Source: a virus
DNA: 34,186 nt
IMG/VR virus record: IMGVR_UViG_3300007725_000012
Span: 1-34,186 of that record
Strand: one strand, 5' to 3'
The first letter of the stretch is position 1. Each line of letters opens with the position of its first letter. The position numbers and the translations under genes were made by a program. Under the pieces are notes generated by a model. It had not been told where the DNA came from. It did not search any database and saw only the letters and a program-made list of their open reading frames with translations. This document shows, piece after piece, positions 2 through 33,931 of this stretch.

Positions 2-151
2 GCTATGGTGAATCATATCCGTGACCTAGAGCGCAAGATTGGTTCAATGCAGTTCAACCTTGACCAGTTGAACGTCGGTAAAAATGCTTTCACTGACATG
101 TTAATCACATCGTTGGATACAGAAAAAGACGATGATTCCGCTGCCGCTTGA
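2..151 (+). CDS. C-terminal end of an unknown coiled-coil phage protein (5' partial)
   Basis: An open frame enters from the left edge and stops with TGA at 149-151, giving about 49 residues. The visible part is rich in charged residues with heptad-like hydrophobic spacing, so a short coiled coil is likely, and it ends in an acidic DDD-S-AAA tail. It carries the first copy of the dispersed palindrome (93-104), read in frame as T-D-M-L. Its last 20 bases overlap the start of the broken gene that follows, a normal arrangement in this tightly packed late operon. The start lies outside the window and I do not recognise the family. Proximity to the lysis genes hints at a late virion or lysis-associated role, but that is inference only. 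Confidence 0.6.
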   Translation, partial: AMVNHIRDLERKIGSMQFNLDQLNVGKNAFTDMLITSLDTEKDDDSAAA

Positions 152-319
152 TAAGCAACTCCATTTTTCTCAGGCGGTATGTTAGCAGGGTTGTTCATGC
201 CGTTTGGGTTTGGAGTTGTGGCAGCGGTTGGTGTAGGTAAGGAAGTCTACGGTAAGGTCAGCGGTAAGGGTACGCCCGAATGAAAGGATGCTTTTGCTAC
301 TGTAGTAGGTGGGACGTAA
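132..319 (+). pseudogene. Broken small phage membrane-protein gene: one frameshift and one in-frame TGA
   Basis: ATG at 132 reads M-I-P-L-P-L-D-K-Q-L-H-F. After the T-run at 164-168 the sensible reading moves by -1 and continues F-S-G-G-M-L-A-G-L-F with a hydrophobic segment, then K-E-V-Y-G-K-V-S-G-K-G-T-P-E, a TGA at 281-283, then K-D-A-F-A-T-V-V-G-G-T and TAA at 317-319. The pattern DK-x-x-HF, hydrophobic helix, GKE-(V/I)-Y, GTPE-W-KDA is that of small YfiM/DUF2279-like membrane proteins often found near phage lysis genes. The TGA falls exactly where Trp (TGG) is expected. Loss of one T plus TGG to TGA would explain both lesions. Programmed -1 slippage with readthrough, or sequencing error, are alternatives. 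Confidence 0.55.
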
Positions 320-338
320 TCTTTAAGGAATAGCGCAC

Positions 339-722
339 ATGGAAGAAGACAGACTTGTTCGGATAGAGAACAAGCTGGACAAGCTGTCTGACGCCGTAGT
401 GGCGATAGCGCGTACAGAAGAACAGATCACTACCCTGTTCGCTAAGAACACCGAGACACGTACACGATTGGATGCGTGTGAGGCGGATATTAGGATACTG
501 CGTGAGCGCTCGCACAGTATCACCAACGCAATGGTTGAGCATGGGGCTAGGATTCACAGCCTTGAAGGCACCAAAGAGCTGGTTGAGGATATGCGGATTG
601 ATGTGCATGACAACAGCAGGTCCTTAGGTCGCATAGAGAAACTGACATGGCTAGCGGTTGGCGGTGTTGCCAGTATTGCTGTGTACCTGATTGAACGCTT
701 AATAGAGGGGATACTGCCATGA
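339..722 (+). CDS. Coiled-coil protein with C-terminal membrane anchor, lysis cluster
   Basis: The product has 127 residues. Residues 1-100 are strongly charged with heptad-like Leu/Ile spacing, which suggests a long coiled coil. Residues about 103-122 (WLAVGG...AVYLIERLI) form one hydrophobic helix near the C terminus. A Shine-Dalgarno AAGGA lies 9 bases before the ATG. The stop overlaps the start of the holin gene by ATGA, so the two are likely translationally coupled. Proteins of this shape are common beside phage holins. A role as anti-holin, spanin-like accessory or membrane-bound lysis regulator is possible. No family-specific motif is recognised. Confidence 0.75.
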   Translation: MEEDRLVRIENKLDKLSDAVVAIARTEEQITTLFAKNTETRTRLDACEADIRILRERSHSITNAMVEHGARIHSLEGTKELVEDMRIDVHDNSRSLGRIEKLTWLAVGGVASIAVYLIERLIEGILP

Positions 723-1105: not shown

Positions 1106-1527
1106 CTATTGACGCCGCCAACAATGGGTTTTTCGAAAACCCATATTTCGATAGAGAAGAGTTCGCGTGCAAATGCGGCTGCGGATACAGCACCGTCGAT
1201 GCGCGTCTCCTTGAGATGTTAACGATAGTTCGTGGCACTCTCATTAAACCTGTTTATATAACCTCAGGGGCGCGGTGCCTGACACACAACGCCAAAGTTG
1301 GCGGCGCAGCGCCTCAACTTGGCATGGACCATCAGCCTGTTTCGGGTACGGGATCACAACATCTATGGGGTCTAGCCGCCGACATAACGGTAGAAGACAC
1401 GCCTCCGCACGAAGTCCAAAACCTTCTCACGCAATGTATGGAGGGATGGGGCGGCATCGGCAGTTACAAGACGTTTACTCACATAGATGTACGGCCTAAG
1501 ATGGCTAGATGGAAAGGCAACGATTAA
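1102..1527 (+). CDS. Endolysin, peptidase M15 family (D-Ala-D-Ala type carboxypeptidase)
   Basis: The product has 141 residues. The M15_3 signature is clear: ITSGARC-x-x-HN at about 53-63, then VGGA, then SQHLWGLAADI with His87 and Asp94, and THIDVRP with His127. In this family these His and Asp residues bind the catalytic zinc that cleaves peptidoglycan peptide cross-bridges. A Cys cluster C23-K-C25-G-C27 with C59 may add structural support. The length matches stand-alone phage M15 endolysins and there is no signal peptide, so it depends on the upstream holin for export. The start overlaps the holin stop by ATGA. Confidence 0.92.
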   Translation: MTIDAANNGFFENPYFDREEFACKCGCGYSTVDARLLEMLTIVRGTLIKPVYITSGARCLTHNAKVGGAAPQLGMDHQPVSGTGSQHLWGLAADITVEDTPPHEVQNLLTQCMEGWGGIGSYKTFTHIDVRPKMARWKGND

Positions 1528-1557
1528 GCCTTAAATTAACATGAAGGTTACTACGCT

Positions 1558-3177
1558 ATGGCGATGATAAAAGTTACACAGTTCGGCGGAGTCGCTCCTA
1601 AAGTACCGCCCCGGTATCTACAGGAAAACCAAGCGCAGGTAGCTCTAAATTGCCCCACATGGCTCGGTAACTTACAACCCATCCAAGACACCTCATATAT
1701 CGCGGATTTTTCTAAGTCCGGCACGATTTCTAGCATCTACAAGTTCGGACAGGATAACTATAACGAAGACGAATACTGGTTCCACTGGGCCGAAGATGTC
1801 GATGTCGTGCAAGGCTTCATCAATGGCGATGTAACCGAACGTACGTACTACACAGGCGATGGTTACCCTAAGGTAACCAATAACGAGTTAGCCTTATCGG
1901 GGGGTTCTACAGACTACCCTGTTGCCTCTTATAAGTTAGGCGTACCCAAACCGACTGTGGCTCCGATCTGTATACTTGGCGGCACGCCCGAAGAAGAGGC
2001 ACTTGCTGAAACACGCACATACACTTATACGTTTGTGAACTCATGGGGCGAAGAGTCTGGGCCGTTCTCAGAAGACCCATATCCCGCCTCTGCGGTTATC
2101 GACGTGATTGAGGGTGAGAATGTTACCCTGACGCTGCCTACAGGTGTCTCTGGCAACTACAACATTACCCACAAGCGTATCTACCGCTCGACCTCGGGCG
2201 TTTACCTTTACGTTGCAGAAATCCCACTGTCGCAGGGCACGTATGTAGATACCCTTGACCCTGACGCGTTAGTAGAAGAATTACCCTCTCTGACGTGGGA
2301 GCCACCACGTGATGACCTCAAAGGACTCACAGGTATGCCTAACGGTGTACTCGCTGCGTTCTCTGGCATCGATGTGTATTTCTCTGAGCCGTACCGTCCG
2401 TTTGCATGGCCTCTTCAGTACGCGCAGTCTGTGGGGTATCCGATTGTTGGACTTGGCGCTATAGACACCACACTAGTGGTTCTAACCAAAGGGCGTCCGT
2501 TCTTCATTCAAGGCTCGACTCCAGACTCTATGGTGGTTGTAGAAGGCGATGTTTCTCAGGCATGTGTCTCCAAGCAGTCTATCGTCAGTCTTAACGGCGG
2601 CGTGTACTACGCGTCTCCTGACGGCCTCGTTGCACTGGCTCCGGGCGGCTCACGTATCGTCACCCAAGGACTGTTTCAGAAACCTCAGTGGCAGGCACTA
2701 AACCCTGAAAGCATCCGCGGGTTTATCAGTGAAGATCGGTATGTTGGGTTCTACGACACGGGTGTGGTAAAAGGTGGGTTTATTTATGACCCAGCTTCTA
2801 ACTCTTTTACACTGCACAACATACACGCTACGGCTGGATACAGCGACCTCGAAACAGATACGCTTTACCTCGCTGTCGATAACAACTTACACAAATGGGA
2901 AGGCGGCAGTGCCCTCACATACACGTGGCGATCTAAGGTGTTCACTATGCCGGACCTCGTCTCGTTTACATGTTTCCGTGTTAACTCTGAGTCGTACCCG
3001 ATCACGATTACAGTCTACCGTGATGGGCAAGAGCACCACAGCACAACTGTAGAGTCCCGAGATATACAGCGTTTGCCTGTAGGGTATGGGCATGACTGGG
3101 AATTTGAGCTGACTGGAACAGGTGTTGTTTTCTCTGTCCAGATCGCACAATCGCCACGGGAGATAGCGAATGGCTAA
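1558..3177 (+). CDS. Conserved podovirus-like virion protein with FN3-like segment
   Basis: The product has 539 residues, mostly beta-rich. The N-terminal part has many Trp/Tyr residues and a YYTGDG-x-PK turn. Around residues 155-175 is a TYTYTFVNSWGEESGP stretch typical of fibronectin type III-like strands in phage structural proteins, and later regions look beta-propeller-like (repeated Y/F-x-G, D-G-L-V-A-L). The family is often annotated only as virion structural protein and its exact position is not known to me. It is placed between lysis genes and tail fibre, and its stop overlaps the fibre start (ATGGCTAA), so a neck or tail adaptor role is a reasonable inference. AAGG lies about 11 bases before the ATG. 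Confidence 0.6.
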   Translation: MAMIKVTQFGGVAPKVPPRYLQENQAQVALNCPTWLGNLQPIQDTSYIADFSKSGTISSIYKFGQDNYNEDEYWFHWAEDVDVVQGFINGDVTERTYYTGDGYPKVTNNELALSGGSTDYPVASYKLGVPKPTVAPICILGGTPEEEALAETRTYTYTFVNSWGEESGPFSEDPYPASAVIDVIEGENVTLTLPTGVSGNYNITHKRIYRSTSGVYLYVAEIPLSQGTYVDTLDPDALVEELPSLTWEPPRDDLKGLTGMPNGVLAAFSGIDVYFSEPYRPFAWPLQYAQSVGYPIVGLGAIDTTLVVLTKGRPFFIQGSTPDSMVVVEGDVSQACVSKQSIVSLNGGVYYASPDGLVALAPGGSRIVTQGLFQKPQWQALNPESIRGFISEDRYVGFYDTGVVKGGFIYDPASNSFTLHNIHATAGYSDLETDTLYLAVDNNLHKWEGGSALTYTWRSKVFTMPDLVSFTCFRVNSESYPITITVYRDGQEHHSTTVESRDIQRLPVGYGHDWEFELTGTGVVFSVQIAQSPREIANG

Positions 3178-6100
3178 GCTACCTGTAATCACGTCACTTA
3201 TATCGAACGATCTTCGTCGTTTCCTTGACCGAGTACGTGAAGCCTTTGACGGCAATGACCCTGTCATTAAGCGCAGTGATCTACTCAACTCGGGCGCGTT
3301 TACCGCAGGTCCGGGCGGGGACTTAGACTTCCGCGGCCCCGCTGATAGCACGTGTGGTACGCCTCCAGCACTGACTAACCTTGATGCGTCGGGTGCGATG
3401 ACATCGATCTTGTTGTCTTGGGAAGGATGGCGTTACCCATGTAAAGCCTATGTAGAGATCCACCGCGCTGATGTAGACGATATTGGCCTAGCGGTTTTGA
3501 TCGGATCGTCTACAGGCGGACTGTACTCTGACGCTGTTGGTTCCAACGCTACGCACTACTATTGGGTACGTGCTGTGAATACTGAGGGTACGGTAGGTCC
3601 GTTCAACCAGACAGCAGGCACCAAGGGTGAGACCGCGCCGGATATTCTCTATCTCCTTGACATGTTATCAGGACAGTTAAGGGAGTCTGAGCTTAACCAA
3701 ACCCTAACCTCACGTATCGACTTGATCGACGGTGACCCGCGAACACCGGGAACGATTCCCTACCAAATCGAAGACTCGAAAACTTCAGCGATAGCCGCCG
3801 CAGCAGACGATGCCGAAACTGCTATTTCGGCAGCCATTACTTCCTACGACACAGCGGTTGTTGGGGCGTACCGTACTAGCATCGCCAAGTCTATAAAAGA
3901 TGGGGACGCCGGGGTAACCGCTAAAGTCACGAACCTTAGTTACTCCATCTACGGTAACCCTCTCTCAGAAGATCCTGACGCGTTCGCGGGATCGCTCGCG
4001 CTTCTTAAGACTGACATTGAGCAGACAGCATCCGCAACATATGCCACGGCTAAAGATCAGAACTCACTTATTGCGGCGATCTACGGCCCTGAATACGATA
4101 TCAGTAACCCGCTCACGCTTGACCAATTAACCTCAGGCTCTATTTACGAAGAACGTGAAGTGCGATCTTCGCAGTTTGAGACGTTATCGCAGTCGATTGA
4201 AGTGCTGACCGTTGGTGCGGGTGAAGGTATCGATGCTATCCATACGTGGTTCTACGATGACGGGTTAGATAACTGGAAACCTCGCAGTACTACGCTATCT
4301 AACTATTTCGGTTACCTACGCGTTGAATCTGTAGATACCTCAGTCCCCGCTAGCGCTTATGTGTATACGAACAATGCGGCTAATGGCGATGCCATGTCGT
4401 TCTCTGGAGCTACCTATAACCACATTCGCATACGCGGACGCCGCACGGCAGGGGATAGTACGTCTTGGGATTTCCGCATCTTTTATCAGATAGATGGCAT
4501 ATGGCGTGTTGGATACACCGACATTGAGCGAGACATTTCTGTAGGCGAGTACTTTGTTATTAACGCTGACATGTCAAACCAAGCTGGGTGGACGGGCGGT
4601 ACTATTACGGGGTTACAGCTCCGTATGTTCAAAACCCGTAAGGACCTGTTCGATATTGACTACGTTACCGTGGGACGTATTGGTGTCGCAGCGTCTACAG
4701 CGACTGTACTCACAGAACGTGAAGCCCGTATTAGTGGCGATGCAGTGCAGGCTACGAACCTACAGACCTTAGAAGCGAAATTCCAAGGCGCTAATGCGTG
4801 GATCACAAGTTTTGATGAAGCCTATTCTAACGGTGAAGCAGACTCGGCAGATCAATTCAGCGCAACCAAGTCGCTCAAGACATTAGAGTCGGAAGTGGCT
4901 AATGCTCGTGCTTGGATCGCCAGCTATGACGATACGTTTAGTGATGCTAACACGTCAGCAGCAACGTCTCTGGATTCTCTCGGTAGTGAATTAGATGTAA
5001 CGTCGGCTTGGATTAACAAGTTAGATGATACGTTTGTCTCAACTACAGGCGCGACCTCGTATTCACTAAACCAGATCAGCACTACGCTTGGTGATAACAG
5101 CGCGGCTATCGAGACCCACGCTGAATCTATTGACGGGCTAAAAGCAGAATACACGGTTAAGATCGACAACAACGGACACGTCTCTGGGTTCGGCCTCGCG
5201 TCTACTCGTACGCTCGGTGACGAAGCTATTCCCGGCCCCGCTCTCTCAGAGTTCAGCATTGTTGCTGACAAGTTCTCTATAGCGCCTGTGGGTACGGACT
5301 GGGCGGATAAAGACAGCACTTCTCCGTTCTTCTATCTCACGAAGCCAACGGTAATCGGCGGCGAAGAGATCCCTGCTGGGGCGTACATGAAGTCCGCCTA
5401 CATCCATGACGCAGCGATTACCAACGCTAAGATTGGCGATGCAGCTATCGACGATGCCAAGATCTCGTCACTTAGCGCCGCGAAAATAACGTTCGGGGAA
5501 ATGGACGGGGATCGCATTAAGGCTAACACCCTAGATGCAGACCGTATCGATACAGACACAATCGTCGCCTATCTCGCCAAGATCACCAATGCGTATATCG
5601 ATAGCGCGAATATAAACAAAGGCGAAATCAAACGTGCAAACATCGAAGACGCGGCGATTAACAACGCGAAGATCGCGAACCTTGCCGTTGACGCCGCGAA
5701 AATAGCTAACGCCACCATCACAGGCGCAAAGATAAAAGATGCTCAGATAGACACCCTACAACTGGCTGGGCAAGCCGTAACCATCCCATCCAGCGCGTTT
5801 ACTGCGGGTGCTAGAGAGCTATACCTTGGTAACGACAACAAACCGCTACTTCAGACATTAAAACTAACGAGTACAGGTGCGCCTATCGTATTTAACTTTA
5901 GCGCCTGTATGCGTATTTTAACCGACCCCAATAGTCTAAAATACGGCGGGTACAACATGTACGCCCAGTTATATAAGGGAGATACACTAATATTCAACGG
6001 TTTTTTCTGGCGTCTAATTAAGTTCAATTCGTATGTTGCTGGCACGTCCACTTCATCCTTTTCTTTCCAAGCGCTTTACACCCCCGGCGCGGGTACACAT

Positions 6101-6202
6101 ACGTTTTACCTAAAGTGTTGGCATACGAAAGGATCGGGGACGACCAACGCACTATACACCTTCACTAACCGCGCTTTGACCGCGCTCGAGGTGAAGCGAT
6201 GA
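3170..6202 (+). CDS. Tail fibre / tip protein, lambda J-like with DUF1983 repeats and beta-helix stalk
   Basis: The product has 1010 residues. Residues about 65-140 form an FN3-like domain (ILLSWEGW, HYYWVRAVNTEG). Residues about 505-640 hold degenerate repeats (LE-x-x-x-x-AxAWI-x-x-xD) of the DUF1983 type found in phage lambda J. Residues about 660-705 carry YTVKIDNNGHVSGFGL and FSIVADKFSI, the J C-terminal signature. Residues about 740-865 are a run of A-I-x-x-A-K-I-x-x-A repeats expected to form a beta-helical or trimeric stalk. The last 140 residues are unlike the rest in composition and probably form the receptor-binding tip. Three dispersed palindromes lie in the gene (3658, 4566, 5013). 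It determines host adsorption. A fibre assembly gene follows with an ATGA overlap. Confidence 0.85.
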   Translation: MAKLPVITSLISNDLRRFLDRVREAFDGNDPVIKRSDLLNSGAFTAGPGGDLDFRGPADSTCGTPPALTNLDASGAMTSILLSWEGWRYPCKAYVEIHRADVDDIGLAVLIGSSTGGLYSDAVGSNATHYYWVRAVNTEGTVGPFNQTAGTKGETAPDILYLLDMLSGQLRESELNQTLTSRIDLIDGDPRTPGTIPYQIEDSKTSAIAAAADDAETAISAAITSYDTAVVGAYRTSIAKSIKDGDAGVTAKVTNLSYSIYGNPLSEDPDAFAGSLALLKTDIEQTASATYATAKDQNSLIAAIYGPEYDISNPLTLDQLTSGSIYEEREVRSSQFETLSQSIEVLTVGAGEGIDAIHTWFYDDGLDNWKPRSTTLSNYFGYLRVESVDTSVPASAYVYTNNAANGDAMSFSGATYNHIRIRGRRTAGDSTSWDFRIFYQIDGIWRVGYTDIERDISVGEYFVINADMSNQAGWTGGTITGLQLRMFKTRKDLFDIDYVTVGRIGVAASTATVLTEREARISGDAVQATNLQTLEAKFQGANAWITSFDEAYSNGEADSADQFSATKSLKTLESEVANARAWIASYDDTFSDANTSAATSLDSLGSELDVTSAWINKLDDTFVSTTGATSYSLNQISTTLGDNSAAIETHAESIDGLKAEYTVKIDNNGHVSGFGLASTRTLGDEAIPGPALSEFSIVADKFSIAPVGTDWADKDSTSPFFYLTKPTVIGGEEIPAGAYMKSAYIHDAAITNAKIGDAAIDDAKISSLSAAKITFGEMDGDRIKANTLDADRIDTDTIVAYLAKITNAYIDSANINKGEIKRANIEDAAINNAKIANLAVDAAKIANATITGAKIKDAQIDTLQLAGQAVTIPSSAFTAGARELYLGNDNKPLLQTLKLTSTGAPIVFNFSACMRILTDPNSLKYGGYNMYAQLYKGDTLIFNGFFWRLIKFNSYVAGTSTSSFSFQALYTPGAGTHTFYLKCWHTKGSGTTNALYTFTNRALTALEVKR

Positions 6203-6621
6203 TTTACTCAATATACGATAAGACAACGGGTGAGATCCGCAGAGTTATCCGTTGCCCCAAAGAGCAGATCGAGATACAGCTAGACGCTGGCGAATCCTAC
6301 TTGGAGCAGGACTCTGACGACGCTACGCAGTACGTAAGAGATGGCGCACTGGCCACCAAACCTTCACGCCCTACCGAACGTCACGTGTGGAACTGGGACA
6401 CGTATACGTGGGACAGCCCAAGTGCTGATGCTGAGTACGAGTACCGTATCGAGACAGCGTTAGCGCGTAGAGCTGACTTGTTAGCAGCAAGTGATTGGAC
6501 ACAGTTACCCGACGTTCCGTTGGCAACCAAAGAAAAATATGCGGAATACAGGCAGCGGTTACGTGACATAACCAAACAGCCGGGGTATCCACACCAGATC
6601 CACTGGCCTACAGAGCCTTAG
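6199..6621 (+). CDS. Tail fibre assembly chaperone-like protein (Phage_tail_APC type)
   Basis: The product has 140 residues. The C-terminal half holds the recognisable core: DWTQLPDVPL, a Lys/Tyr spacer, YRQRLRDITKQPGYP, then IHWP close to the end. This is the signature of phage tail assembly chaperone/fibre assembly proteins that help fold or attach the fibre. The N-terminal half has a beta-rich IYSIYDKTTGEI start common in such proteins. The gene follows the fibre gene with ATGA overlap, the normal partner arrangement. It carries a dispersed palindrome at 6473-6484 (A-D-L-L-A in frame). Confidence 0.8.
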   Translation: MIYSIYDKTTGEIRRVIRCPKEQIEIQLDAGESYLEQDSDDATQYVRDGALATKPSRPTERHVWNWDTYTWDSPSADAEYEYRIETALARRADLLAASDWTQLPDVPLATKEKYAEYRQRLRDITKQPGYPHQIHWPTEP

Positions 6622-6645
6622 TAACAAGGTGGTTTGTGTGGCGTA

Positions 6646-6690
6646 TTGCTATATACTAAGTAACATGCTAACACGTTGGTGTCATGTGGT
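6646..6690 (+). promoter_or_regulatory. Possible extended -10 promoter with two degenerate palindrome copies
   Basis: This sits in the longest clear gap of the + strand late block (6622-6690). TGC followed by TATATA at 6650-6655 (or TATACT at 6652) resembles an extended -10 element, but no good -35 is seen. Directly downstream lie TAACATGCTA (9 of 10 to the dispersed motif) and TAACACGTTG (8 of 10). It could drive the acetyltransferase and the three ejection-type genes separately from the tail genes. Confidence 0.35.
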
Positions 6691-7131
6691 ATGAATTATT
6701 CACTAGTGTTTGACGAGTCGCGCAATGTCGGTGAGTGGGTCGCAGAACAGGTAGAGCAAGAGTCTAGCTGGGGCGATTTCTACGCGATGGGCGTTAAAAA
6801 CACAGACACAGGTGAGTTCGTTGCGGGGGTTGTGTTCAACAACTATAACACAGCAAACGCGACATGCCATATTGCCGTCAAACGTACAGGCCGCTACCTG
6901 CGCGAGCTACTAGTACACGGCTACAAGTACGCATTTAAGACTTGTGGGTTGAACAGATTAACAGGGTTAGTGGAATCCACTAACCAGAAGGCGCTCAAAC
7001 TGGATTATCACATGGGGTTTGAGCACGAATTTACGATGAAAAAAGCGGGTAGAGACGGCGCTGACATTGAGGTGTTAGTCCTATGGCCTGAAAACTTTAG
7101 ATACAAAGGTGACGTAGATGAACTTGCATAG
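6691..7131 (+). CDS. GNAT-like N-acetyltransferase
   Basis: The product is 146 residues from ATG 6691. Upstream TTG and GTG codons at 6676 and 6679 would add five residues, but ATG is preferred. The fold pattern suits the GNAT superfamily: a beta-rich first half with GVVFNNYN and HIAVKRTGRY, then a helix and strand GLNRLTGLVESTNQKAL, where an Asn/Lys-rich loop precedes K-L-x-Y-x-MGF-x-x-E, the usual motif B to C region of phage-borne acetyltransferases. The substrate is unknown. The family often sits between tail and internal virion genes in podoviruses. The end overlaps the next gene by 14 bases. Confidence 0.65.
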   Translation: MNYSLVFDESRNVGEWVAEQVEQESSWGDFYAMGVKNTDTGEFVAGVVFNNYNTANATCHIAVKRTGRYLRELLVHGYKYAFKTCGLNRLTGLVESTNQKALKLDYHMGFEHEFTMKKAGRDGADIEVLVLWPENFRYKGDVDELA

Positions 7132-24674: not shown

Positions 24675-24675
24675 C

Positions 24676-25493: not shown

Positions 25494-25495
25494 GT

Positions 25496-26462: not shown

Positions 26463-26464
26463 GG

Positions 26465-26735: not shown

Positions 26736-28544
26736 TTATTTAGCATCACCGTAGCGATCAGCGATGTCGCCTTCAGCCGCCAGAGGGATCTCAGGCCACC
26801 AGCTTGGACTGGTAGACATCACTTTTAAAATCCACTCCAGTGCAGTTTCGGCCTCGTCTTCCGGCACAACACAGACGAACTCGTCGTGTACCATCATGGC
26901 AACGTGATACTTCTTGGCGATTGTCACTAACTGCTCAGCGAGAATGTTGCGGCTCAGGTGCTGACACAGGTTCTCCACCACCTTACCGCCGTAGAGCTTC
27001 ACCGTCTCAGTACCTCGACCCTTGCGTGACTGGTACTGGAATCCATCTTCACAACGTTCGAGCTTGGGGTAGTAGATATAGTGCTTAGGCGCTGTCATTA
27101 GCATGTTCTTTCGTGACCGCACCAGACCGCCACCCATCTCACAAGTACTGCCGTCTAGCATGGCTTTGATTAACTTGTCAGCGTCACGCCAACCCTTCAC
27201 GACTTGAGAGTACGTGTTGCGCCACAGGTTCACGATGTTCTCAGCTTCTTCGTCTGTTACATCTGTGCCGGATATGCGGAGCATCTCTTTGAACTTCCTC
27301 CAGCCACAGCCGTACCCCAATGATAGGTGAGCGACCTTACCCACAAACCGTTGGTCTTTCGTAACCTCGGCAATCTCTACACCGTACAACTGCGATGCGA
27401 AGTCCTTGTATAAGTCTTCACCGCGCTCGATCATCTCGATCACATCCATCTGCCCAGCGAGCGTGTGGTTGGTACGTAGCTCGATGTTGGAGGAGTCGGC
27501 TACCACTAACTTGTAACCCTCAGGTGCTTTGATCGCACGGCGGATCGTATTGTCGCCACGGCTTGGTAGGTTCTGAAGGTTCAACCCGTCCTGTCCTGAC
27601 CACCGCCACGTAGTCACTGCGCCACAGTAGCCCAGCGGGACCGACAGTGGACCGAGCTTAGACAGCCGGATCAGCTTCTCCATGCGGGTCTCGTTTAGCG
27701 TTGACTTGTTAGCGAGACGTGCTTCGACAAGCGAAGCTACCCGGGGGTCTGACTTAAGCGCCATGAATCCTTTGTCTGACTTGGCAAACGCGTAGGTCTC
27801 TTTGCCTGTAGTGGGGCTGGTCTTCATCGGAGGCTCAACACCCTTGGACCGCAGCAGCTCAGCAAACTTGTTGTTAGACATCAGCTCCGACGGATCTGAC
27901 AGCTCAGCGGCTCCGATTAACGCTAACTTGTTAGCCTGTTCTTCAGCCAAGGCTTGCGTCAGAAGCTCCGTGTCCAGCATCAACGTCGGATGCGTCGCCA
28001 TACGTACTGTGCAGTCGATGACTCGCATCTCCATGTCAGTGGTATGTTTGCGTAGCATCGGGTACAACTTGGCAGTCAGCTCCACGTCATTAATACAGTA
28101 CTGTCCATAGGCGGCTAACTGTTCCTCTGAGAAGTCAGCGAGACGTTTACCGAGTGCATCAACGACTTCAGTGCCCTTAACACCGATCTTATATTTCTCA
28201 GCCAGTGCCTTCAGCGAGCCGCCCACCGTCAGGCCGTGCATAGGCTTCGACATAGACAGCGTATCGACAATCACCTTAGGGACGATACCGAACTCACGCT
28301 CTAGTATCTGCACATCAAACGCGGCATTGTGGGCTACCACGACCTGTCCGTGTAACGGCTCTAGGTAGGATCTGTAGTAGGCTTGGAGCGGGAAGCTATG
28401 CCATTGGGTGGGTTCGTTGTTCTTCTTTATACCAACACCGATGATCTCGAATCGGCTGTCAGCGATATACTCTTGGGTTGTCATCTTACCGAGACTGTAG
28501 TCTTTGCTGTAATGTGTCTCGAAATCTATTACGTAAACGTCCAT
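26736..28544 (-). CDS. Family A DNA polymerase with 3'-5' exonuclease domain
   Basis: The product is 602 residues from ATG 28544, with AGGAGA 6 bases upstream. The proofreading domain shows DFE (Asp7, Glu9), HNAAFD (Asp77) and YCIND (Tyr149, Asp153). The polymerase domain shows GLNLQNLP, motif A VVADSSNIELR (Asp350), motif B R399-x3-K403-x3-L407-x3-Y411-G, LYGGKVVENLCQ, and motif C VHDEF (His553-Glu555). The residue matching E. coli Pol I Phe762 is Leu407. There is no 5'-3' exonuclease domain, as usual for phage replicative enzymes. It is served by the primase-helicase and SSB genes downstream. Three dispersed palindromes lie in the gene (27170, 27701, 27923). Confidence 0.96.
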   Translation of the reverse strand: MDVYVIDFETHYSKDYSLGKMTTQEYIADSRFEIIGVGIKKNNEPTQWHSFPLQAYYRSYLEPLHGQVVVAHNAAFDVQILEREFGIVPKVIVDTLSMSKPMHGLTVGGSLKALAEKYKIGVKGTEVVDALGKRLADFSEEQLAAYGQYCINDVELTAKLYPMLRKHTTDMEMRVIDCTVRMATHPTLMLDTELLTQALAEEQANKLALIGAAELSDPSELMSNNKFAELLRSKGVEPPMKTSPTTGKETYAFAKSDKGFMALKSDPRVASLVEARLANKSTLNETRMEKLIRLSKLGPLSVPLGYCGAVTTWRWSGQDGLNLQNLPSRGDNTIRRAIKAPEGYKLVVADSSNIELRTNHTLAGQMDVIEMIERGEDLYKDFASQLYGVEIAEVTKDQRFVGKVAHLSLGYGCGWRKFKEMLRISGTDVTDEEAENIVNLWRNTYSQVVKGWRDADKLIKAMLDGSTCEMGGGLVRSRKNMLMTAPKHYIYYPKLERCEDGFQYQSRKGRGTETVKLYGGKVVENLCQHLSRNILAEQLVTIAKKYHVAMMVHDEFVCVVPEDEAETALEWILKVMSTSPSWWPEIPLAAEGDIADRYGDAK

Positions 28545-28554
28545 TGCGGATCTC

Positions 28555-29004
28555 CTAGTTCCAAGCGTCAAGCTGTTCAAATATGTGCCCAGCTACTTTC
28601 TCACTAATTTCTTGACCTGAAGGGTCGGCTATCCAGCCAACGCCACACATATGATTAGGGTTAAAGTCGCGAATCAGCCGCCCATGATGTTCCTCAAACA
28701 CAGGGGCTAGATCCTCTTGGTAGTACCGTGAAGAGGTAAAAAGCTGTTCGCCTTTCATATACTCCTCATGGTCATGGCGTCCGAACACTGCGATGTAGCA
28801 ACTCCACGTATGAGGTCGCATCAGTGCCGCCATAACGCGTGTGCCTTCTTTGGATTCAGGTGGGACGATACGCGACTGCTTTAGGTCAATCATGTAGCAC
28901 CCTTTGAGTGTGTTGGTGTAACACAGCACCTTGTTCTTCAGTAGGTGGTCGGCTGTCATAGCGAGGTGTTTCATTTTATTGTAGGTCTTGCGTCTCTTGG
29001 GCAT
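28555..29004 (-). CDS. Unknown protein upstream of the polymerase gene
   Basis: The product is 149 residues from ATG 29004, which overlaps the previous stop as TGATG. The basic N terminus (MPKRRKTYNKMKH) is followed by a mixed alpha/beta body with MIDLKQSRIVPP, FGRHDHEEY and a late Cys/His (NHMCGVGW). No family is recognised. The TAG stop is part of the polymerase gene's AGGAGA ribosome site, which suggests coupled translation with the polymerase. Confidence 0.65.
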   Translation of the reverse strand: MPKRRKTYNKMKHLAMTADHLLKNKVLCYTNTLKGCYMIDLKQSRIVPPESKEGTRVMAALMRPHTWSCYIAVFGRHDHEEYMKGEQLFTSSRYYQEDLAPVFEEHHGRLIRDFNPNHMCGVGWIADPSGQEISEKVAGHIFEQLDAWN

Positions 29005-29333
29005 CACCAGATTCCTATTAACTTGTGAGCCTGAGGGATGTCTTCATCTCGGGGTTTAGCTTTCTTGGGGGTAGCCTGTTTCTTTGTCGCGCCCCGTAGC
29101 TTAGACAAATACCTGTTGCGAGTGTTCTGTCGCTCTACCGTGTCTACGCCTAACCTCTCAGCCCAACGCCGCATAGTGTGCTCGCCCACGCCCCATGATT
29201 TAGCTAACTCGATAATACTGTTGCTGAGATCGTTCAACTGCTCCAATAGCTCGTCTTTGTTGGCTTGGAATATAACCTCTAGTTCGGCTTGTCTTCGCTT
29301 AATTCTGCGAGCCTGTCCATTTTCCATTCCCAT
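29004..29333 (-). CDS. Helix-turn-helix protein with basic tail
   Basis: The product has 109 residues. Residues 39-62 (SIIELAKSWGVGEHTMRRW) form a helix-turn-helix of the resolvase/terminase-small-subunit style: ELAKSWGV, then E-H-T-M-R-R-W. Upstream is a charged coil (11-38), and downstream a Lys/Arg/Pro-rich tail (TKKQATPKKAKPRDED). It could bind DNA as a regulator or nucleoid-like protein. It is a second candidate reader of the dispersed palindrome. The start lies within the end of the preceding gene, an overlap of about 55 bases. Confidence 0.65.
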   Translation of the reverse strand: MGMENGQARRIKRRQAELEVIFQANKDELLEQLNDLSNSIIELAKSWGVGEHTMRRWAERLGVDTVERQNTRNRYLSKLRGATKKQATPKKAKPRDEDIPQAHKLIGIW

Positions 29334-29578
29334 TCGGTCTGCATCCTTTCGTATCGTAATTGTTGAGCGGCCAAACTTAGCTTCCTTGCGGGTTTGCTAT
29401 AGTAAGTGGCCTTACGCCAACCCTGTGCGTCATACACCGCAGTGACGACTTCCCAGATTAAATCTGGACTTGAGCGGGGGAACTTACGTGATACAAGAAC
29501 CACTGCCCCTGTGAAATCCTGAGGGTCACACGCGTGTATGATGTATCGCACTAACTTCTTAGTGATCTCGGCTTGCAT
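29279..29578 (-). CDS. Unknown 99-residue protein
   Basis: No family is recognised. The first part is helical with HACDPQDF, then SSPDLIWEVVTAVYDAQGWRKA, and a charged Trp-rich end (MQTEWEWKMDRLAEL). It overlaps the NinX-like gene before it and the HTH gene after it, so it is held in the translational chain. The ribosome site is weak (GAGA). Base use matches the neighbours. Confidence 0.6.
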   Translation of the reverse strand: MQAEITKKLVRYIIHACDPQDFTGAVVLVSRKFPRSSPDLIWEVVTAVYDAQGWRKATYYSKPARKLSLAAQQLRYERMQTEWEWKMDRLAELSEDKPN

Positions 29579-29873
29579 GGTCTCTTTTATTCTCTTTCAT
29601 TTTCAGGTAGCACAGTGCAGCAGCTTTTGTAGGTGATTTATCAATCGCAAATACTTCGTTTGAATACGCCCTGTAAACGTCGCCATGCACCAGTGCTAAA
29701 CCAATCTTCTCACGTTCAATGATGGGGCCAATCCAAAACCACTCCATATAATCCATGCCCCTTATGTTGGGATGCCTGACAGGAAATACCGCTGTACGCC
29801 CTATCCAAGATTCGATCTTGTAGTCGGGATACTCTAGTTTTGCTATTGCTAAGTTGATGGCACTATCTTCCAT
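29559..29873 (-). CDS. NinX-like (DUF2591) protein
   Basis: The product is 104 residues from ATG 29873, preferred because GGGAG lies 8 bases upstream; longer reading to 29939 has no ribosome site and would run far into the MazG-like gene. AINLAIAKLEYPDY at the start, a central P-I-I-E-R-E-K-I-G-L, and DKSPTKAAALCYLKMKE at the end are the typical conserved blocks of the phage NinX/DUF2591 family. The family is common in early regions of lambda-like and other phages. Its function is not established. Confidence 0.75.
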   Translation of the reverse strand: MEDSAINLAIAKLEYPDYKIESWIGRTAVFPVRHPNIRGMDYMEWFWIGPIIEREKIGLALVHGDVYRAYSNEVFAIDKSPTKAAALCYLKMKENKRDHASRDH

Positions 29874-29892
29874 TGTGTTTCTCCCTTGCGGA

Positions 29893-30288
29893 TTAGTAAC
29901 GTTTGCCTCCATTGCGGCGATGCTCTGGAGTGTGGTCAATGCGGTTGCGGTTATATATTAACTTCTCGACGAAAGCCCCGCCGAGGTCTAGGTCCAACCC
30001 ACCCGCCATGTCAAAGATGCGGATGACAGCGTCCGCTAACTCAACGGTTAGCCCGTCACGCCACGGTAACTTGTCATCCTGAAGTCCCTTGCGGTCTGCC
30101 TCCATAGCTTCGGCTACTTCAGACACGACCAGCATAAGCAGTTCACCCACGTTCCGCTCGATAGGCTCGCCTGTGTTGACGTCCTGCCACCAACGCTCGT
30201 TTTCCTCGTGTACTCCTCTGACGAAGGCGTTAAGGGCATCAGCCAGTTCGGCTTGATCTTCATCTAGGTATATCAGTTCCATCTGCAT
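29893..30288 (-). CDS. MazG-like nucleotide pyrophosphohydrolase
   Basis: The product is 131 residues from ATG 30288. VSEVAEAMEADRKG gives E57-x-x-E60, and VELADAVIRIFDMAG gives E83-x-x-D86, the paired metal-binding motifs of all-alpha NTP pyrophosphohydrolases, followed by LDLGGAFVEKL...N-R-N-R. These enzymes split NTPs or dNTPs to the monophosphate, and phage copies are thought to alter nucleotide or alarmone pools during infection. AGGAG lies about 9 bases upstream. It contains a dispersed palindrome at 30066-30077 (D-D-K-L-P). It follows the small membrane gene by 15 bases. Confidence 0.88.
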   Translation of the reverse strand: MQMELIYLDEDQAELADALNAFVRGVHEENERWWQDVNTGEPIERNVGELLMLVVSEVAEAMEADRKGLQDDKLPWRDGLTVELADAVIRIFDMAGGLDLDLGGAFVEKLIYNRNRIDHTPEHRRNGGKRY

Positions 30289-30302
30289 CACGCGGGGTCT
30301 CC

Positions 30303-30470
30303 TTAGGGTTTATCGCAGTAGATGTGTGGTTGAGGGGGCCACAGCCCATCTGCAATCATTTTGCAGTGGTACTCATGTTGCGCTAGTTGGTCTTGATAAT
30401 CCATCTCTGATACCAGCAAAAAGATCGCAACCAAAACCACTAGCGCAATACCGCCCTGTATGTACTGCAT
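30303..30470 (-). CDS. Small single-TM protein, 55 residues
   Basis: ATG 30470 overlaps the preceding stop (TGATG) and runs 55 codons to TAA. The first 20 residues are M-Q-Y-I-Q-G-G-I-A-L-V-V-L-V-A-I-F-L-L-V, a single TM helix or signal anchor. The rest contains HEYHCKMIADGLWPP and a terminal Y-C-D-K-P. A C-x-M followed by G-x-WP pattern is seen in short phage membrane proteins often placed in early operons. The function is unknown. Coupled translation supports it as real. Confidence 0.75.
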   Translation of the reverse strand: MQYIQGGIALVVLVAIFLLVSEMDYQDQLAQHEYHCKMIADGLWPPQPHIYCDKP

Positions 30471-31240
30471 CACAGCGGTCTCAGGCGGTAAACGTCAGTG
30501 CCACCTGCATTGCTAAAACTATGCCACGGTTGCAGTAGCGCACATTTTGCGAACACCTTAGCCAGAGGCTCCAACTTGGGGCGCAACTTAGTTTCGTCCA
30601 GTGATTTAGGCCAAGGACTACGGCGCTTTTGGTTCTTAGCAACCTGTTGCGCCTCTCCCTCTAACAAGACAAGGTAAGACGGAAACACGGTGTTCCACTG
30701 TCCGGGGGTCTTGCAGAACCATGACATCTGCTCGAACGTAGCATAGGCGTTGTCTCGCACATGCCGCATCTTGACGTAGGCGGTAAGCCAATCCTGTAGT
30801 TCTTGGTAAAACGGATGGTCGTCGCCAATGGTGGCAGTACTTCCGGCTGTGAAGAAAGATTTGCTACGCATGTCCGCTAAGTCGATACGCCACTCAGCAC
30901 TGACGCGTAACATTTCGTCCTCGGGGATCTCGCTGAAATGGCGTCCACCTGTGTAACTGTGCTGTTGCGAATACTTCAACGGTATCTCAAACGTACCGCC
31001 GATATTCGCGGAGTAAGGCGTGCTGACTACGTGCATCTCAGGGTGCTGCTGATGATAGGTGTTGACCTTACGTGCTAGGTCTAACAGGTCAGGCGGGTAG
31101 AACGCATACAATCGCTCCATCTTGTCAGACTCACGTAGGCACGGGGGTTGCGGCACCAGACGATAGAGTCGGTCAAGGAAACAGTTCGCTTGTCTACGGA
31201 TCTGGTATGATTCTTGGTCACTGAATCGAGTTGCTGACAT
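30470..31240 (-). CDS. Unknown protein associated with the MoxR/VWA genes
   Basis: The product has 256 residues. No family is recognised. It has a basic, Cys-containing N terminus (QANCFLDRLYRLVPQPPC), a middle section with SANIGGTFEIPLKY and EWRIDLADMRSKSFF, and a Trp-rich section later (MSWFCKTPGQWNTVFPSYLVLLEGEA). AAGGAG precedes the ATG, and the start overlaps the upstream gene by 23 bases. Its position two genes after the VWA protein suggests it might be a client or partner of that module, but this is inference from order only. Confidence 0.65.
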   Translation of the reverse strand: MSATRFSDQESYQIRRQANCFLDRLYRLVPQPPCLRESDKMERLYAFYPPDLLDLARKVNTYHQQHPEMHVVSTPYSANIGGTFEIPLKYSQQHSYTGGRHFSEIPEDEMLRVSAEWRIDLADMRSKSFFTAGSTATIGDDHPFYQELQDWLTAYVKMRHVRDNAYATFEQMSWFCKTPGQWNTVFPSYLVLLEGEAQQVAKNQKRRSPWPKSLDETKLRPKLEPLAKVFAKCALLQPWHSFSNAGGTDVYRLRPL

Positions 31241-31523
31241 GATTATTTACTCCTTGCGAGTTGTCGAGTGTGAGCGCACCAGTGTAGTCCGTAATGAACT
31301 CTAATGCACCTTTGTAGTTGCGCCCGAATTTTATTTTCACGGGTACGACTTGCTCGGGTTTATATATGAGAAGCGATGAATCTTTGGCGCTGACTAGCGC
31401 AACTAGCTCCATGTCTTCCCCTAACTTGTTAGTGACAAAGCATTGTAATACCCCGTCACCTTTGTCGGTTTTAGGCGTGAACCCCTGCTTTTGCAGTAGC
31501 TCCACTAACTTGTCATGCGTCAT
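31218..31523 (-). CDS. Unknown 101-residue protein after the VWA gene
   Basis: The product is mixed alpha/beta: a helix MTHDKLVELLQKQGF, then GDGVLQCFVTNKL, ELVALVSAKDSSLLIY and VVPVKIKFGRNYKGALEF. No family is recognised. It overlaps the VWA gene by 11 bases and the following gene by 23, so it is part of the chain of coupled genes. It holds two dispersed palindromes (31421-31432 as T-N-K-L-G, 31505-31516 as H-D-K-L-V). Confidence 0.65.
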   Translation of the reverse strand: MTHDKLVELLQKQGFTPKTDKGDGVLQCFVTNKLGEDMELVALVSAKDSSLLIYKPEQVVPVKIKFGRNYKGALEFITDYTGALTLDNSQGVNNHVSNSIQ

Positions 31524-32808
31524 TGTTTATCTCCACGTATATTGTTTGTCCATAAGGCGCAGTGATGTCCGGCTCTGTGATGCCCCAGATTACATGTGAC
31601 TTCTCAGGCTGAACACCCCACGGTGTATAACCGTCCGTCAGTACTACGATAGTCTCAGGCTGTTCGTCGAAATTATTCTCGATGTATGCGAGTCCGGCCC
31701 CCATGTCAGTACCACCTGAGCTTGAGTACGATAGCTCAGCGATCTGATCGACATCGTCAGGCTCATCAACATGCTGGACCCTGTCGTTGACCCACAACAC
31801 TTTGACCCAGTCAGGCTTACATGTCTGCATAAGATACTGTAACTCGCCAAGGTATTGCGACTGCTCGTTGGGTGATATAGATCCAGAGATGTCCATAATG
31901 ATGGCGACTGGACCCGTACGGAACCCCATAGCCGATGGGAAATAGATGTCCCACATAGCGAGGCGGCGGCGGTGTGGCTTAGCCCACGTGACTGACTCAC
32001 GACCCTCGTCTGGCTGGAAGGCCGACGCCAGAGCCTCTTTCCAGTTGACCTTTGCCTCGAACAAGTTAGCCAGAGCTTTCGCCAGTGTGCCGGGAAGGTT
32101 GCCCATCTGCTTAGCGACCTCCATCGCTTGATTGACAGAGATACGCACCTCATCCTCGGATTTCGGCTCGCCATCAGGGACTAAGTGCTCGTCAAAGCCA
32201 CCGTGTTTGCCTGTGCTGGATGATGACGACTGGCCGGAGTTACTGGGTTGGCCTGACTTGTCATCGTCAGGACCGTTGGCACCAGACCCCGAGCCGGACT
32301 GGTCACCCTCACCGTCACCGCCGTTGTTGGGTTGCTCGGGCTGTTCTTGCTCGTCGTAGATGCGGCAGTACACATCCTCGACAGCCTCGTCACCGTTGAA
32401 CCGCGAGTCGATCAGACCCTCTTTGGGCATGGTGCCGATGTGTGAGAGTTTGAGTATGGCGTTGATAATGTAGTCAGCGGCAATGTTATGCACCCGATGC
32501 GAATACGGTTTGTTGTTGGGACCGACTTTCAGATCGGCCCAGTATTTACCGCGTGAACCGTGCTGAAAGATGCCGTGTAGTACCTCGTGGCAGAACACGA
32601 ACACCAGTTCGTCTAGGGTTAACGTCTCAGCAAAACGTGGGTTGAAGTATATAGTGATGCCGTCAGTGGCCGCCGTATCCACCTCGTCTGTCTGTATGAT
32701 TGACATGTTAGTGTAAAAGTACGAACCGAAAAACGGTTGCATAGCCATTACACGTCCTAACATGTTAGCGATAACGTCAGAGGGTTGTTTGGTTGGTGTG
32801 AGTTTCAT
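31513..32808 (-). CDS. Metallopeptidase-like plus VWA domain protein (DUF2201 type)
   Basis: The product has 431 residues. The N-terminal domain has the zinc-protease motif HEVLHGIFQH (His74, Glu75, His78). A low-complexity Ser/Gly/Asp/Gln linker spans about 155-210. The C-terminal VWA-like domain shows D306-I-S-G-S, GGT-D near 365-368 and LTDG near 390-393, a full metal-ion adhesion site set. This double-domain layout is the one paired with MoxR AAA+ ATPases in bacteria and in large phages. The MoxR gene lies directly upstream, 34 bases away. The pair probably remodels or inserts a cofactor into a target protein. The target is unknown. It has three dispersed palindromes (32253, 32700, 32757). 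Confidence 0.87.
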   Translation of the reverse strand: MKLTPTKQPSDVIANMLGRVMAMQPFFGSYFYTNMSIIQTDEVDTAATDGITIYFNPRFAETLTLDELVFVFCHEVLHGIFQHGSRGKYWADLKVGPNNKPYSHRVHNIAADYIINAILKLSHIGTMPKEGLIDSRFNGDEAVEDVYCRIYDEQEQPEQPNNGGDGEGDQSGSGSGANGPDDDKSGQPSNSGQSSSSSTGKHGGFDEHLVPDGEPKSEDEVRISVNQAMEVAKQMGNLPGTLAKALANLFEAKVNWKEALASAFQPDEGRESVTWAKPHRRRLAMWDIYFPSAMGFRTGPVAIIMDISGSISPNEQSQYLGELQYLMQTCKPDWVKVLWVNDRVQHVDEPDDVDQIAELSYSSSGGTDMGAGLAYIENNFDEQPETIVVLTDGYTPWGVQPEKSHVIWGITEPDITAPYGQTIYVEINNDA

Positions 32809-32842
32809 AGCGTTGCGCTCCGTGATGATAGGTGAAGGCTAC

Positions 32843-33931
32843 TCAGTGAGTAGCCAGAGACATAGTTGCTTCAGGGTTAGCCGCGATAAAGCGTGCGATG
32901 CTTGGCGCGTTGAGTGCCAGAGGCTCGACCTCAGTGAAGCGTTTGAGTGATGCCAGTGTCATCTCTGTGCCCAGACGTTGCACGAACTGGAACAGCGGCT
33001 CGATGTTTTGACTGTTAGCGTGAGCGACGGCTTGCATCATACACGCATACCTTGCGTCGATACGCTCGATCGGCGGGATCTTACAGCTCGTTGGATTCTC
33101 TAACATGTCAGCGGGAGACGGCATGACATCCTGATTGCGTAGGAACCCGAACAGGGCGGTTGCCGCACCGACACCGATAGCACCCTTGATCGTCTCGAAC
33201 TCGATAGGATCTTGGTCAGTACTGCACGCTAGATCGTTGCCGTTGGAGTTGAGCGTATGGAAGTTGTGGGCATACATCAACGCACGTGGGTTACAGTGCT
33301 TAGTGGTGCGGTCCTCGGGGGGCGTAGTCACGAACACCTCATGCGGGAAGCGTTCAACAAATGCACGGTACAGGTGATGTACGTTGTTCTTCGCTGCCCA
33401 TGCAAGCCAGCCTGACACGTCAGGAGAAACCTCGATGTCGATCCAGCGAGTGACCTCATGCCCCATTGGAGGGATCGTACCTGCACGCCACGCTTTGGGG
33501 TTGGATGCACCCCAGATGACCCAGCCGTCCGGCAGTGACCAGTCACCGATTTTGCGGGATGTTAGGAACTGCGAGACTGCTTTGCGGTTGCCAAGCTCCG
33601 CCTGATAGTACTCATCAAAGAATATGACACCGCCACGGCGCCCCTTGGCGATCTCAGCATCAACCATTGCCGCCAGTGGCGTACGTGTAGATACCGTGTC
33701 TGGAGCTGAGTTGTCAGCCTTACGTTGTGGGACCATGATGCCACGGACATCCACGGCTTCGATCTGAGACAGCACAAGCTCGACATAGCCTAAGTTGTTA
33801 GCCTCAGTGAACTCGATCATCATCTGCGATTTGCCGATGCCGGGCGCACCCATGAACATGTAGTTATCGCCTGACTGCAACATGCGGTTCATCAGAGCGA
33901 AGTTGTTAGCGGTAAGTTTTGATTGCAACAT
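32843..33931 (-). CDS. MoxR-family AAA+ ATPase
   Basis: The product is 362 residues from ATG 33931, with AAGG about 8 bases upstream; GTG 33940 is the other option. Walker A is GAPGIGKSQ (about 28-36), Walker B VIFFDE (ending near 107), and sensor 1 WGASNPKAW follows about 35 residues later. An Arg-containing WIDIEVSP stretch comes after it. MoxR ATPases act as chaperones with VWA partners, and the partner gene follows immediately. The C-terminal part is helical and less conserved. It has one dispersed palindrome at 33110-33121 (A-D-M-L-E). Confidence 0.88.
   Translation of the reverse strand: MLQSKLTANNFALMNRMLQSGDNYMFMGAPGIGKSQMMIEFTEANNLGYVELVLSQIEAVDVRGIMVPQRKADNSAPDTVSTRTPLAAMVDAEIAKGRRGGVIFFDEYYQAELGNRKAVSQFLTSRKIGDWSLPDGWVIWGASNPKAWRAGTIPPMGHEVTRWIDIEVSPDVSGWLAWAAKNNVHHLYRAFVERFPHEVFVTTPPEDRTTKHCNPRALMYAHNFHTLNSNGNDLACSTDQDPIEFETIKGAIGVGAATALFGFLRNQDVMPSPADMLENPTSCKIPPIERIDARYACMMQAVAHANSQNIEPLFQFVQRLGTEMTLASLKRFTEVEPLALNAPSIARFIAANPEATMSLATH

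Follow-up and report, generated by a model that had tools for sequence, protein, structure and literature searches.

In the 34,186 nucleotides of the virus record IMGVR_UViG_3300007725_000012 (IMG/VR; positions 1 to 34,186, the whole stretch being called the window here), we have found an array of some 75-100 copies of a 22-bp palindromic signal, located mainly inside genes. The core of the signal, TRACWWGTYA, is present in 36 exact copies, where 0.47 are expected from the base composition. Both the window and a related phage record, G001, have the array together with a gene for a helix-turn-helix (HTH) protein of 84 amino acids (aa), and a second relative, G002, has neither. The reading that we favour, tentatively and at a little short of an even chance, is that the array represents the sites of a phage-coded HTH homodimer whose main effect would be silencing or roadblocking of transcription.

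The palindrome array in the window

An independent pattern search again gave 36 exact copies, with 10-mer starts spanning 94 to 33101, and no copy of the reversed pattern; the preliminary description of this DNA, which had reported 36 copies against about 0.5 by chance, was correct in this count. Thirty-two copies are wholly within the predicted coding sequences (32 predicted genes). When synonymous codons were shuffled with every protein and codon pool preserved, the genic copies were reduced to a mean of 0.77 (standard deviation 0.90, maximum 5, n = 1000), and shuffling of the codon order gave a mean of 0.37 (maximum 3, n = 1000). A codon-preserving shuffle had been proposed in the preliminary description as a check on the motif, and the motif withstands it. 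Tripeptides compatible with the motif, [DN][KML][LS], number 48 in the window proteins against 26 (standard deviation 5) in shuffled proteins, and from this excess the palindromic site seems to influence the protein sequences of the window genes.

With the exact copies as seed, a symmetric weight matrix was built that detected 74 sites at a score of at least 12, against 0.55 in Markov controls, including 33 of the 36 exact copies; a second matrix fit with a looser cut-off (5% control rate) gave 102 sites against 3.7 in controls. The full site is approximately TNNcgCTRACWWGTYAGcgNNA, so that the 10-mer described previously remains as a real core, while the true unit is the longer 22-bp palindrome. 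From outside to inside it consists of an outer T, a weak C-G-C, TRAC and an A/T centre, the weaker C adjoining the core, and the outer T/A, 10.5 bp from the centre, is found in 131 of the 148 half-sites belonging to the 74 sites. A-type and G-type halves are mixed in 22 of the 36 exact copies, showing that the two halves vary independently. Half-sites were counted 149 times in total against 68 in controls, and the 47 lone half-sites are not enriched; the whole palindrome is therefore the unit.

Among 93 sites scoring at least 11, 83 are in one codon phase, 3 are in another and 7 are not wholly genic. The genic exact copies share the phase xxT RAC WWG TYA, except for two overlaps with gene ends. 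We read this single phase as forced by stop codons, since TRA would end translation in phase 0, and the near-absence of TA centres (1 of these 93 sites) as avoidance of TAG arising in the allowed phase. In the gene direction, AA centres occur 30 times and TT centres 24 times. An RNA hairpin was also considered: 14 A..C combinations in the gene direction would break an RNA pair, and this together with the common mixed halves leads us to prefer a DNA site, in a count that is not a formal test. A target of restriction or methylation was set aside as well; phages usually lose sites of that kind.

Intergenic positions hold 7 of the 102 sites, the intergenic sequence being 3% of the window, and many copies lie deep in long genes such as the 2558-aa gene and those of the polymerase and primase. 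Mean spacing ranges from 370 bp (cut-off 11) to 466 bp (74 sites). The absence of tandem clustering noted previously was right, and at moderate cut-offs the sites are distributed more evenly than by chance: 0, 0 and 5 of 400 null sets reached the same evenness at cut-offs of 9, 11 and 13, respectively (coefficient of variation 0.64 versus 0.94 in the null sets at cut-off 11), with weak evenness at cut-off 16 (26 of 400). For G001, evenness holds at cut-off 9 (1 of 400) and fails at cut-offs 11, 13 and 16 (58, 260 and 369 of 400). Helical phasing was looked for in the window site spacings and none was seen. Site density is lower in the first 10 kb of the window (18 of 93 sites), which contains mostly structural genes; G001 has no site in its first 5 kb and 5 of 56 in its last 9.4 kb. 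A low-complexity GTGCTGTTGGTGTTG repeat occupies window positions 34039-34155, in the final 150 bases.

The array in related phages

G001 (IMG/VR 3300002231_001573, 49 kb, with 12 unread bases) has 63% identity to the window in the internal virion protein and 60% in the polymerase. It contains 20 exact copies of TRACWWGTYA against 3 of the reversed pattern, and 42 matrix sites against 0.95 in controls; its open reading frames (ORFs) contain 10 exact copies, where synonymous shuffles give 0.40. Eight of 56 codon-alignable sites coincide within 1 bp between the window and G001 (random 0.29, maximum 3), and these coincidences are partly due to shared protein sequence. Since the other 48 lie at non-matching positions, the array turns over while staying large, and selection seems to keep the number of sites more than their positions.

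G002, with 57% identity to the window in the internal virion protein and 38% in the polymerase, has no exact copy, two matrix sites against 1.1 in controls, and no enriched palindrome. Loss of the motif in a relative that keeps the proteins had been named previously as evidence against a functional array; such a loss does occur in G002, but G002 also lacks the gene for the 84-aa HTH protein. A third relative, G009, has a palindrome of its own, TGTTWACATGTWAACA, in 36 sites against 1.75, and it shares the core TNAC..GTNA with the window array. Some palindromes in G009 (L228-L230) overlap 8 bp apart, e.g., those at 43815 and 43823, forming short tandem TGTTWACATGTWAACA operators. Exact TRACWWGTYA was counted in a set of eight records (7 in G009, 1 in G016 and 0 in the other six) and in 29 further records, two of which are shared with the former set; here it occurs 0-4 times per record, and 13 of the 29 have any copy.

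The candidate binding protein

The gene for the 84-aa HTH protein is located beside the primase gene and is common to the window and G001. The G001 orthologue has 59% identity, with VSHTTxGLWMRGQR identical, and a homologue in G009 has 34% identity and is flanked by the same neighbours. When the 32 window proteins were compared with 32 other contigs, this protein was matched only in G001 and G009. Two window genes (256 and 101 aa) were matched in G001 alone, and neither gave a Pfam family match at 0.01. Other shared genes encode proteins that bind DNA too (polymerase, primase, helicase and nucleases), and the 84-aa protein is the only HTH-like one among the shared genes scanned (gene 3170-6202 left out). 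Another HTH-like protein of 109 aa (29004-29333) was rejected as the binder, having no homologue in the array carrier G001.

Against Pfam HTH_3 the 84-aa protein scores 20.3 bits, under the curated cut-off of 23. Its AlphaFold2 model, made from 21 aligned sequences, has five helices and a mean predicted local distance difference test score (pLDDT) of 89. The nearest solved folds are of the lambda-repressor HTH type, namely SO3848 (Z 6.5, 1.5 Å over 52 residues) and CylR2 (Z 6.0), and P22 c2 follows with Z 5.9 (1.8 Å over 51 residues); since this fold is common, the likeness is weak evidence. Foldseek gave no match to the model at E 0.001 (E above 0.1). Among cultured phages, no match to the 84-aa protein was found at 1e-5, and with two homologues from relatives as queries, one gave three weak matches in satellite phages and the other none. 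Viral contig searches using the primase or the HTH protein alone confirmed no relatives, and an alignment of two HTH proteins found only G001. In bacterial genome scans with HTH and polymerase alignments, none of 143 and none of 48 pattern matches was confirmed, with short seeds that miss diverged relatives.

The preliminary description had proposed a dimeric binder with sites throughout the genome, and this is supported by the symmetric halves, the unenriched lone half-sites and the single co-inherited HTH gene. We consider that the 84-aa HTH protein is probably the binder of the array.

Palindromes in the wider lineage

A profile of the HTH protein matches 29 of 31 records, i.e., the window plus 28 of the 29 other contigs from IMG/VR, the exceptions among the 31 being G002 and Rollin. 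In the loci that were compared visually, the HTH gene lies 5-7 kb downstream of the polymerase gene, as in the window. Pfam HTH_3 matches a single gene in each of 8 records out of 10, every time the gene found with the profile (3 of the 8 over the curated cut-off), and it has no match in G001 and G002. An enriched palindrome was found at 1e-9 in 17 of the 29 HTH-carrying records. G002, Rollin and KPP25 have neither an HTH-profile match nor a palindrome, for Rollin and KPP25 in the parts examined. From the 29 further records 26 were taken in (G040, G041 and G042 being left out), eleven of them in part only. The records are not all independent: over 27.7 kb, G027 and G028 represent one phage, and G036 is a relative of G020 at the DNA level.

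Particularly clear examples are the palindromes CTAACAWWTGTTAG in G019, G020, G029, G032 and G036, CTAACAWTGTTAG in G028, and TTAAC-N4-GTTAA in G037. TAAC half-sites recur at a spacing of 3 or 4 in several contigs with other HTH genes. GTTAG-N8-CTAAC, discussed below for G021, was also seen in L044. Site numbers in the relatives are 6-22, and 36 in G009, with G034 (84) and G025 (52) left aside. In G025 (L249-L251) and G034 (L275-L277), AGNNACT-N5-AGTNNCT and GGNCC-type patterns are enriched, which may be repeats. Intergenic shares are 10/13 in G019, 7/9 in G037, 7/10 in G029, 9/15 in G020, 5/16 in G028 and 5/21 in G036, and many sites in G019, G020, G028 and G036 are close to gene starts. Because the sites of the relatives are sparser and often intergenic or near gene starts, our view is that the window and G001 carry an enlarged version, placed within genes, of a regulator-site system belonging to this lineage. 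In G036 (L270-L271), G019, G020 and G028, the CTAACA-type palindromes near gene starts are grouped within one region of the genome. Thirteen of the 21 sites in G036 read ACAAATGT on the plus strand and two read ACATTTGT; the window array has no such orientation bias of the centre.

The palindrome scan also responds to repeats, its mirror control being positive in 11 of 31 records, and it was positive in none of 33 Markov-shuffled records. In the first scan (82 loci listed, three left out), 21 of 79 loci of at least 15 kb were positive at 1e-8, including several unrelated phages; dispersed palindromes as such are therefore not rare. When 67 sequences were rescanned in a uniform manner, the window came fourth (2.81 sites/kb) and G001 fifth (1.94), and 36 sequences had none. 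Ranked above the window were L215, L213 and L225, among which L213 and L225 look repeat-driven; G034 and G025 were also set aside, as was L187, which looks repeat-like. Across 84 loci, exact TRACWWGTYA occurs 50 times where base composition predicts 18. The window itself, through four loci that overlap, contributes 11 of these copies, and the remaining 39 represent a mild excess in polymerase relatives. Outside the window and G001, 113 matrix sites were found in 217 loci (2809 kb).

Possible function of the array

Under the reading that we favour, a phage-coded homodimer, most likely of the 84-aa HTH protein, would bind some 75-100 sites with one dimer per 22-bp palindrome, which the symmetry of the site fits. 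The recognition helices would read TRAC on each side of the centre, and the outer T/A may be a further contact farther from it. Since the sites are distributed throughout both gene blocks and mostly in coding sequence, the bound protein would be spread along the whole genome, on average once per 370-466 bp or so. The most likely effect would be distributed blocking of transcription by a roadblock similar to stoperators or by a silencer, set by the level of the protein, either during the replication phase or in dormancy; organisation of the DNA is a possible second effect.

Several points weigh against this reading. A Pfam integrase was found in neither the window nor G001 and, among 16 records that may be fragments, only in G009; without an integrase in the window or G001, that of a lysogeny repressor is not the obvious role. 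If the protein were still present late, roadblocks within the late structural genes would carry a high cost. The co-occurrence of motif and HTH gene rests on a small number of phages and is confounded by relatedness, G002 representing one loss. The records of the window and G001 may be incomplete, so that another binder could lie outside them, and the scan of G001 took in some of the HTH families. Iteration of the HTH profile used a loose cut-off, so several HTH types are mixed in it, the neighbours of the HTH gene were checked in the window, G001 and G009 only, and the contigs were picked after their palindrome and HTH matches had been seen, so that the rates are not unbiased. Twelve of the 29 HTH-carrying records have no palindrome at 1e-9; G001 is one of them but passes at 1e-7, another is G022, where a scan with the G020 matrix reveals the CTAACA type, and a third is the part of G027 that was taken in, this being one phage with G028. 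Other half-sites are found in the lineage, namely ATAC-N1-GTAT in G017, G018 and G030 and CGACA-N4-TGTCG in G023, and G021 (L241-L243), with another HTH type, has GTTAG-N8-CTAAC in 22 sites, 3 of them intergenic. Finally, G..T halves exceed A..C halves in the gene direction (30 versus 14), a bias that may come from Asp and Leu being favoured over Asn and Ser.

Among the alternatives, we give a limited probability to an architectural role, in which the same HTH protein or another phage protein compacts, segregates or packages the DNA with no direct role in transcription. The location of most sites inside genes, the turnover of positions at a number that stays high, and the even spacing in the window at cut-off 11 are in its favour; on the other hand, evenness is weak at the strictest window cut-off and absent at three of the four cut-offs in G001, the density is lower in the structural part of the window, and the sparser sites of the relatives, in several of them mostly intergenic near gene starts, look regulatory. 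This last observation suits another alternative, that we are dealing with ordinary operators of a repressor for many small operons which are merely numerous: G019, G020, G029 and G037 have 9-15 palindromes, mostly intergenic, and those of G019 and G020 are often just before gene starts. With so few intergenic sites in the window and so many deep in long genes, we regard this explanation as improbable for the array itself.

A host regulator, nucleoid factor or segregation factor might bind the sites, the phage having adopted a host signal. Phages carrying many sites for the host regulator CtrA are known, according to the excerpt available of PMC9437464; in the same excerpt, however, these sites are TTAA-N7-TTAA and mainly intergenic in the phages rich in them, unlike those of the window. 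The motif is also missing from G002 and rare in the 29 further records, and its variants occur in contigs with related HTH genes, so a host binder has a small probability in our view. The common codon phase of the genic exact copies would suit a coding or compositional artefact, to which we assign a negligible probability: the base-composition expectation and the synonymous shuffles rule out chance and codon use, the phase is what stop codons would force, and codons do not obviously account for the flanking T/A 10.5 bp away from the centre.

A more speculative idea, which we regard as rather unlikely, is that of a phage-coded, sequence-specific organiser, in which about a hundred palindromes at roughly even intervals, embedded in the coding sequence and selected by number and not by place, keep the DNA bridged or silenced. 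If this is true, many members of the lineage, each with its own HTH protein and its own site, would represent a fast-evolving self-recognition code for phage DNA.

Genes and features of the window

The window has the gene content of a tailed phage, with an internal virion protein, a family A polymerase, an SNF2-type helicase and a DUF927 primase, and a DarB-like giant protein of 2558 aa (10079-17755) adjoins the structural genes. The internal virion protein has 34-37% identity to cultured phages of Aeromonas, Vibrio, Achromobacter and Escherichia (among the matches listed, 25 of 162), and the polymerase 34-35% to phages of Rhizobium and Pseudomonas. A comparison of bases 1-25000 with cultured phages gave no close match at the nucleotide level. 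The SSB-like neighbour of the HTH gene corresponds to PHROGs families 27714 and 23155, neither with a known function. Coordinates are compiled in Table 1.

Table 1. Palindromic sites and genes at the HTH locus in the window. Site coordinates are those of the 10-mer core; all exact copies match TRACWWGTYA, the strand is "." for palindromes, and the weight-matrix cut-off is 12.
Feature	Position	Strand	Basis or remark
Exact copy TGACATGTTA	94..103	.	pattern match
Exact copy	3658..3667	.	matching site in G001
Exact copy	4567..4576	.	pattern match
Exact copy	5014..5023	.	pattern match
Exact copy	6474..6483	.	pattern match
Exact copy, top matrix score 25.7	8913..8922	.	pattern and weight matrix
Exact copy	10060..10069	.	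gene 8233-10062 stops at its TAA
Exact copy	10141..10150	.	pattern match
Exact copy	11194..11203	.	pattern match
Exact copy	11518..11527	.	under weight-matrix cut-off
Exact copy	12139..12148	.	pattern match
Exact copy	12349..12358	.	pattern match
Exact copy	12967..12976	.	pattern match
Exact copy	13534..13543	.	matching site in G001
Exact copy	14212..14221	.	pattern match
Exact copy	16012..16021	.	pattern match
Exact copy	17791..17800	.	between the convergent gene blocks
Exact copy	19452..19461	.	pattern match
Exact copy	20184..20193	.	pattern match
Exact copy	21474..21483	.	pattern match
Exact copy, intergenic, sole exact TA centre	22534..22543	.	under weight-matrix cut-off
Exact copy	23472..23481	.	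matching site in G001
Exact copy	23763..23772	.	matching site in G001
Exact copy	24292..24301	.	pattern match
Exact copy	24480..24489	.	pattern match
Exact copy	26510..26519	.	pattern match
Exact copy	27171..27180	.	matching site in G001
Exact copy	27702..27711	.	matching site in G001
Exact copy	27924..27933	.	pattern match
Exact copy	30067..30076	.	pattern match
Exact copy	31422..31431	.	pattern match
Exact copy	31506..31515	.	under weight-matrix cut-off
Exact copy	32254..32263	.	pattern match
Exact copy	32701..32710	.	pattern match
Exact copy	32758..32767	.	pattern match
Exact copy	33101..33110	.	pattern match
41 further degenerate sites, 22-bp matrix	1212..34154	.	score at least 12 (74 total minus 33 exact)
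Degenerate core starts (1/4)	1212, 1881, 2262, 2880, 4948, 5266, 7068, 7477, 7630, 7807		
Degenerate core starts (2/4)	10402, 13162, 13198, 14041, 15501, 15898, 16348, 17194, 18240, 19260		
Degenerate core starts (3/4)	19800, 20253, 20646, 23973, 25044, 25443, 25616, 25919, 26928, 27507		
Degenerate core starts (4/4)	28128, 28479, 29019, 29151, 30551, 30662, 32059, 32620, 33707, 33791, 34145		
Primase/helicase, conserved HTH neighbour	17853..20879	-	DUF927, PHROG 25314
84-aa HTH protein, candidate array binder	20880..21134	-	59% orthologue in G001, none in G002
300-aa SSB-like protein, conserved HTH neighbour	21207..22109	-	label from position and acidic tail

Comparison with known systems

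No description of this consensus or array was found in searches of an open-licence literature collection, most subscription papers being outside this scope. Phage phiC31, whose host is Streptomyces, has about twenty conserved inverted-repeat operators, which are palindromic, dispersed over the phage genome and intergenic. A monomeric stoperator repressor is reportedly the subject of one paper.

One parallel offered by the preliminary description was that of the stoperators of some mycobacteriophages. Stoperators belong to temperate phages with an immunity repressor, which stops the elongation of transcription when bound. In the excerpt available of PMC6550527, those of the Cluster A mycobacteriophages (L5, Bxb1 and Trixie) are short sites (13-14 bp) that lack dyad symmetry; a genome has 20-30 of them, all oriented with transcription and bound by a monomer, and their motif drifts with phage lineage and repressor, which is a likeness to the lineage of the window. 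The parallel holds for the many dispersed sites and may hold for a single phage protein as the binder; it does not hold for the type of site, since the window, an unrelated phage, has a 22-bp palindrome in 74-102 mostly coding sites in 34 kb. Because the window array has neither the short asymmetric site nor the orientation with transcription, it is not a member of the stoperators, though it may work in a similar manner. Alongside stoperators, the array looks like a second, structurally different way for a phage to exert control across its genome, and one small protein is the candidate for it.

SPBRE of the Bacillus phage SPbeta is another repeated element bound by a phage protein. According to the excerpt available of PMC10516654, it is a 15-bp motif in promoter regions, derived from nine peaks of chromatin affinity purification sequencing (ChAP-seq), and its binder MrpR is the phage master repressor, with a fold like that of tyrosine recombinases. 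Unlike SPBRE, the window sites are not placed in promoter regions, as their small intergenic share indicates. The CtrA sites mentioned above differ from the window array in both consensus and genic placement.

A comparable array was found in a cultured phage. The Rhizobium phage RHph_TM3_14A (L293, MN988472.1 11000-60889) has 28 TTAC-N8-GTAA sites in 49,890 bases against a Markov mean of 0.14, mostly TTACC-N6-GGTAA and spanning 1727 to 46377 of L293; 17 are in ORFs against 0.69 in synonymous shuffles, and in one case the site finishes just a few bases upstream of where the HTH-like gene QIG67510 begins with its start codon. As in the window, the palindromes are dispersed both in and between genes, and the polymerase is related (35%), whereas the half-site and spacing differ and the HTH-profile matches are weak (E 0.0011 and 0.18). 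The differing palindromes of the relatives provide a natural series for studying the joint change of an HTH protein and its many sites, and this cultured phage with its 28 dispersed palindromes makes the general question testable at the bench.

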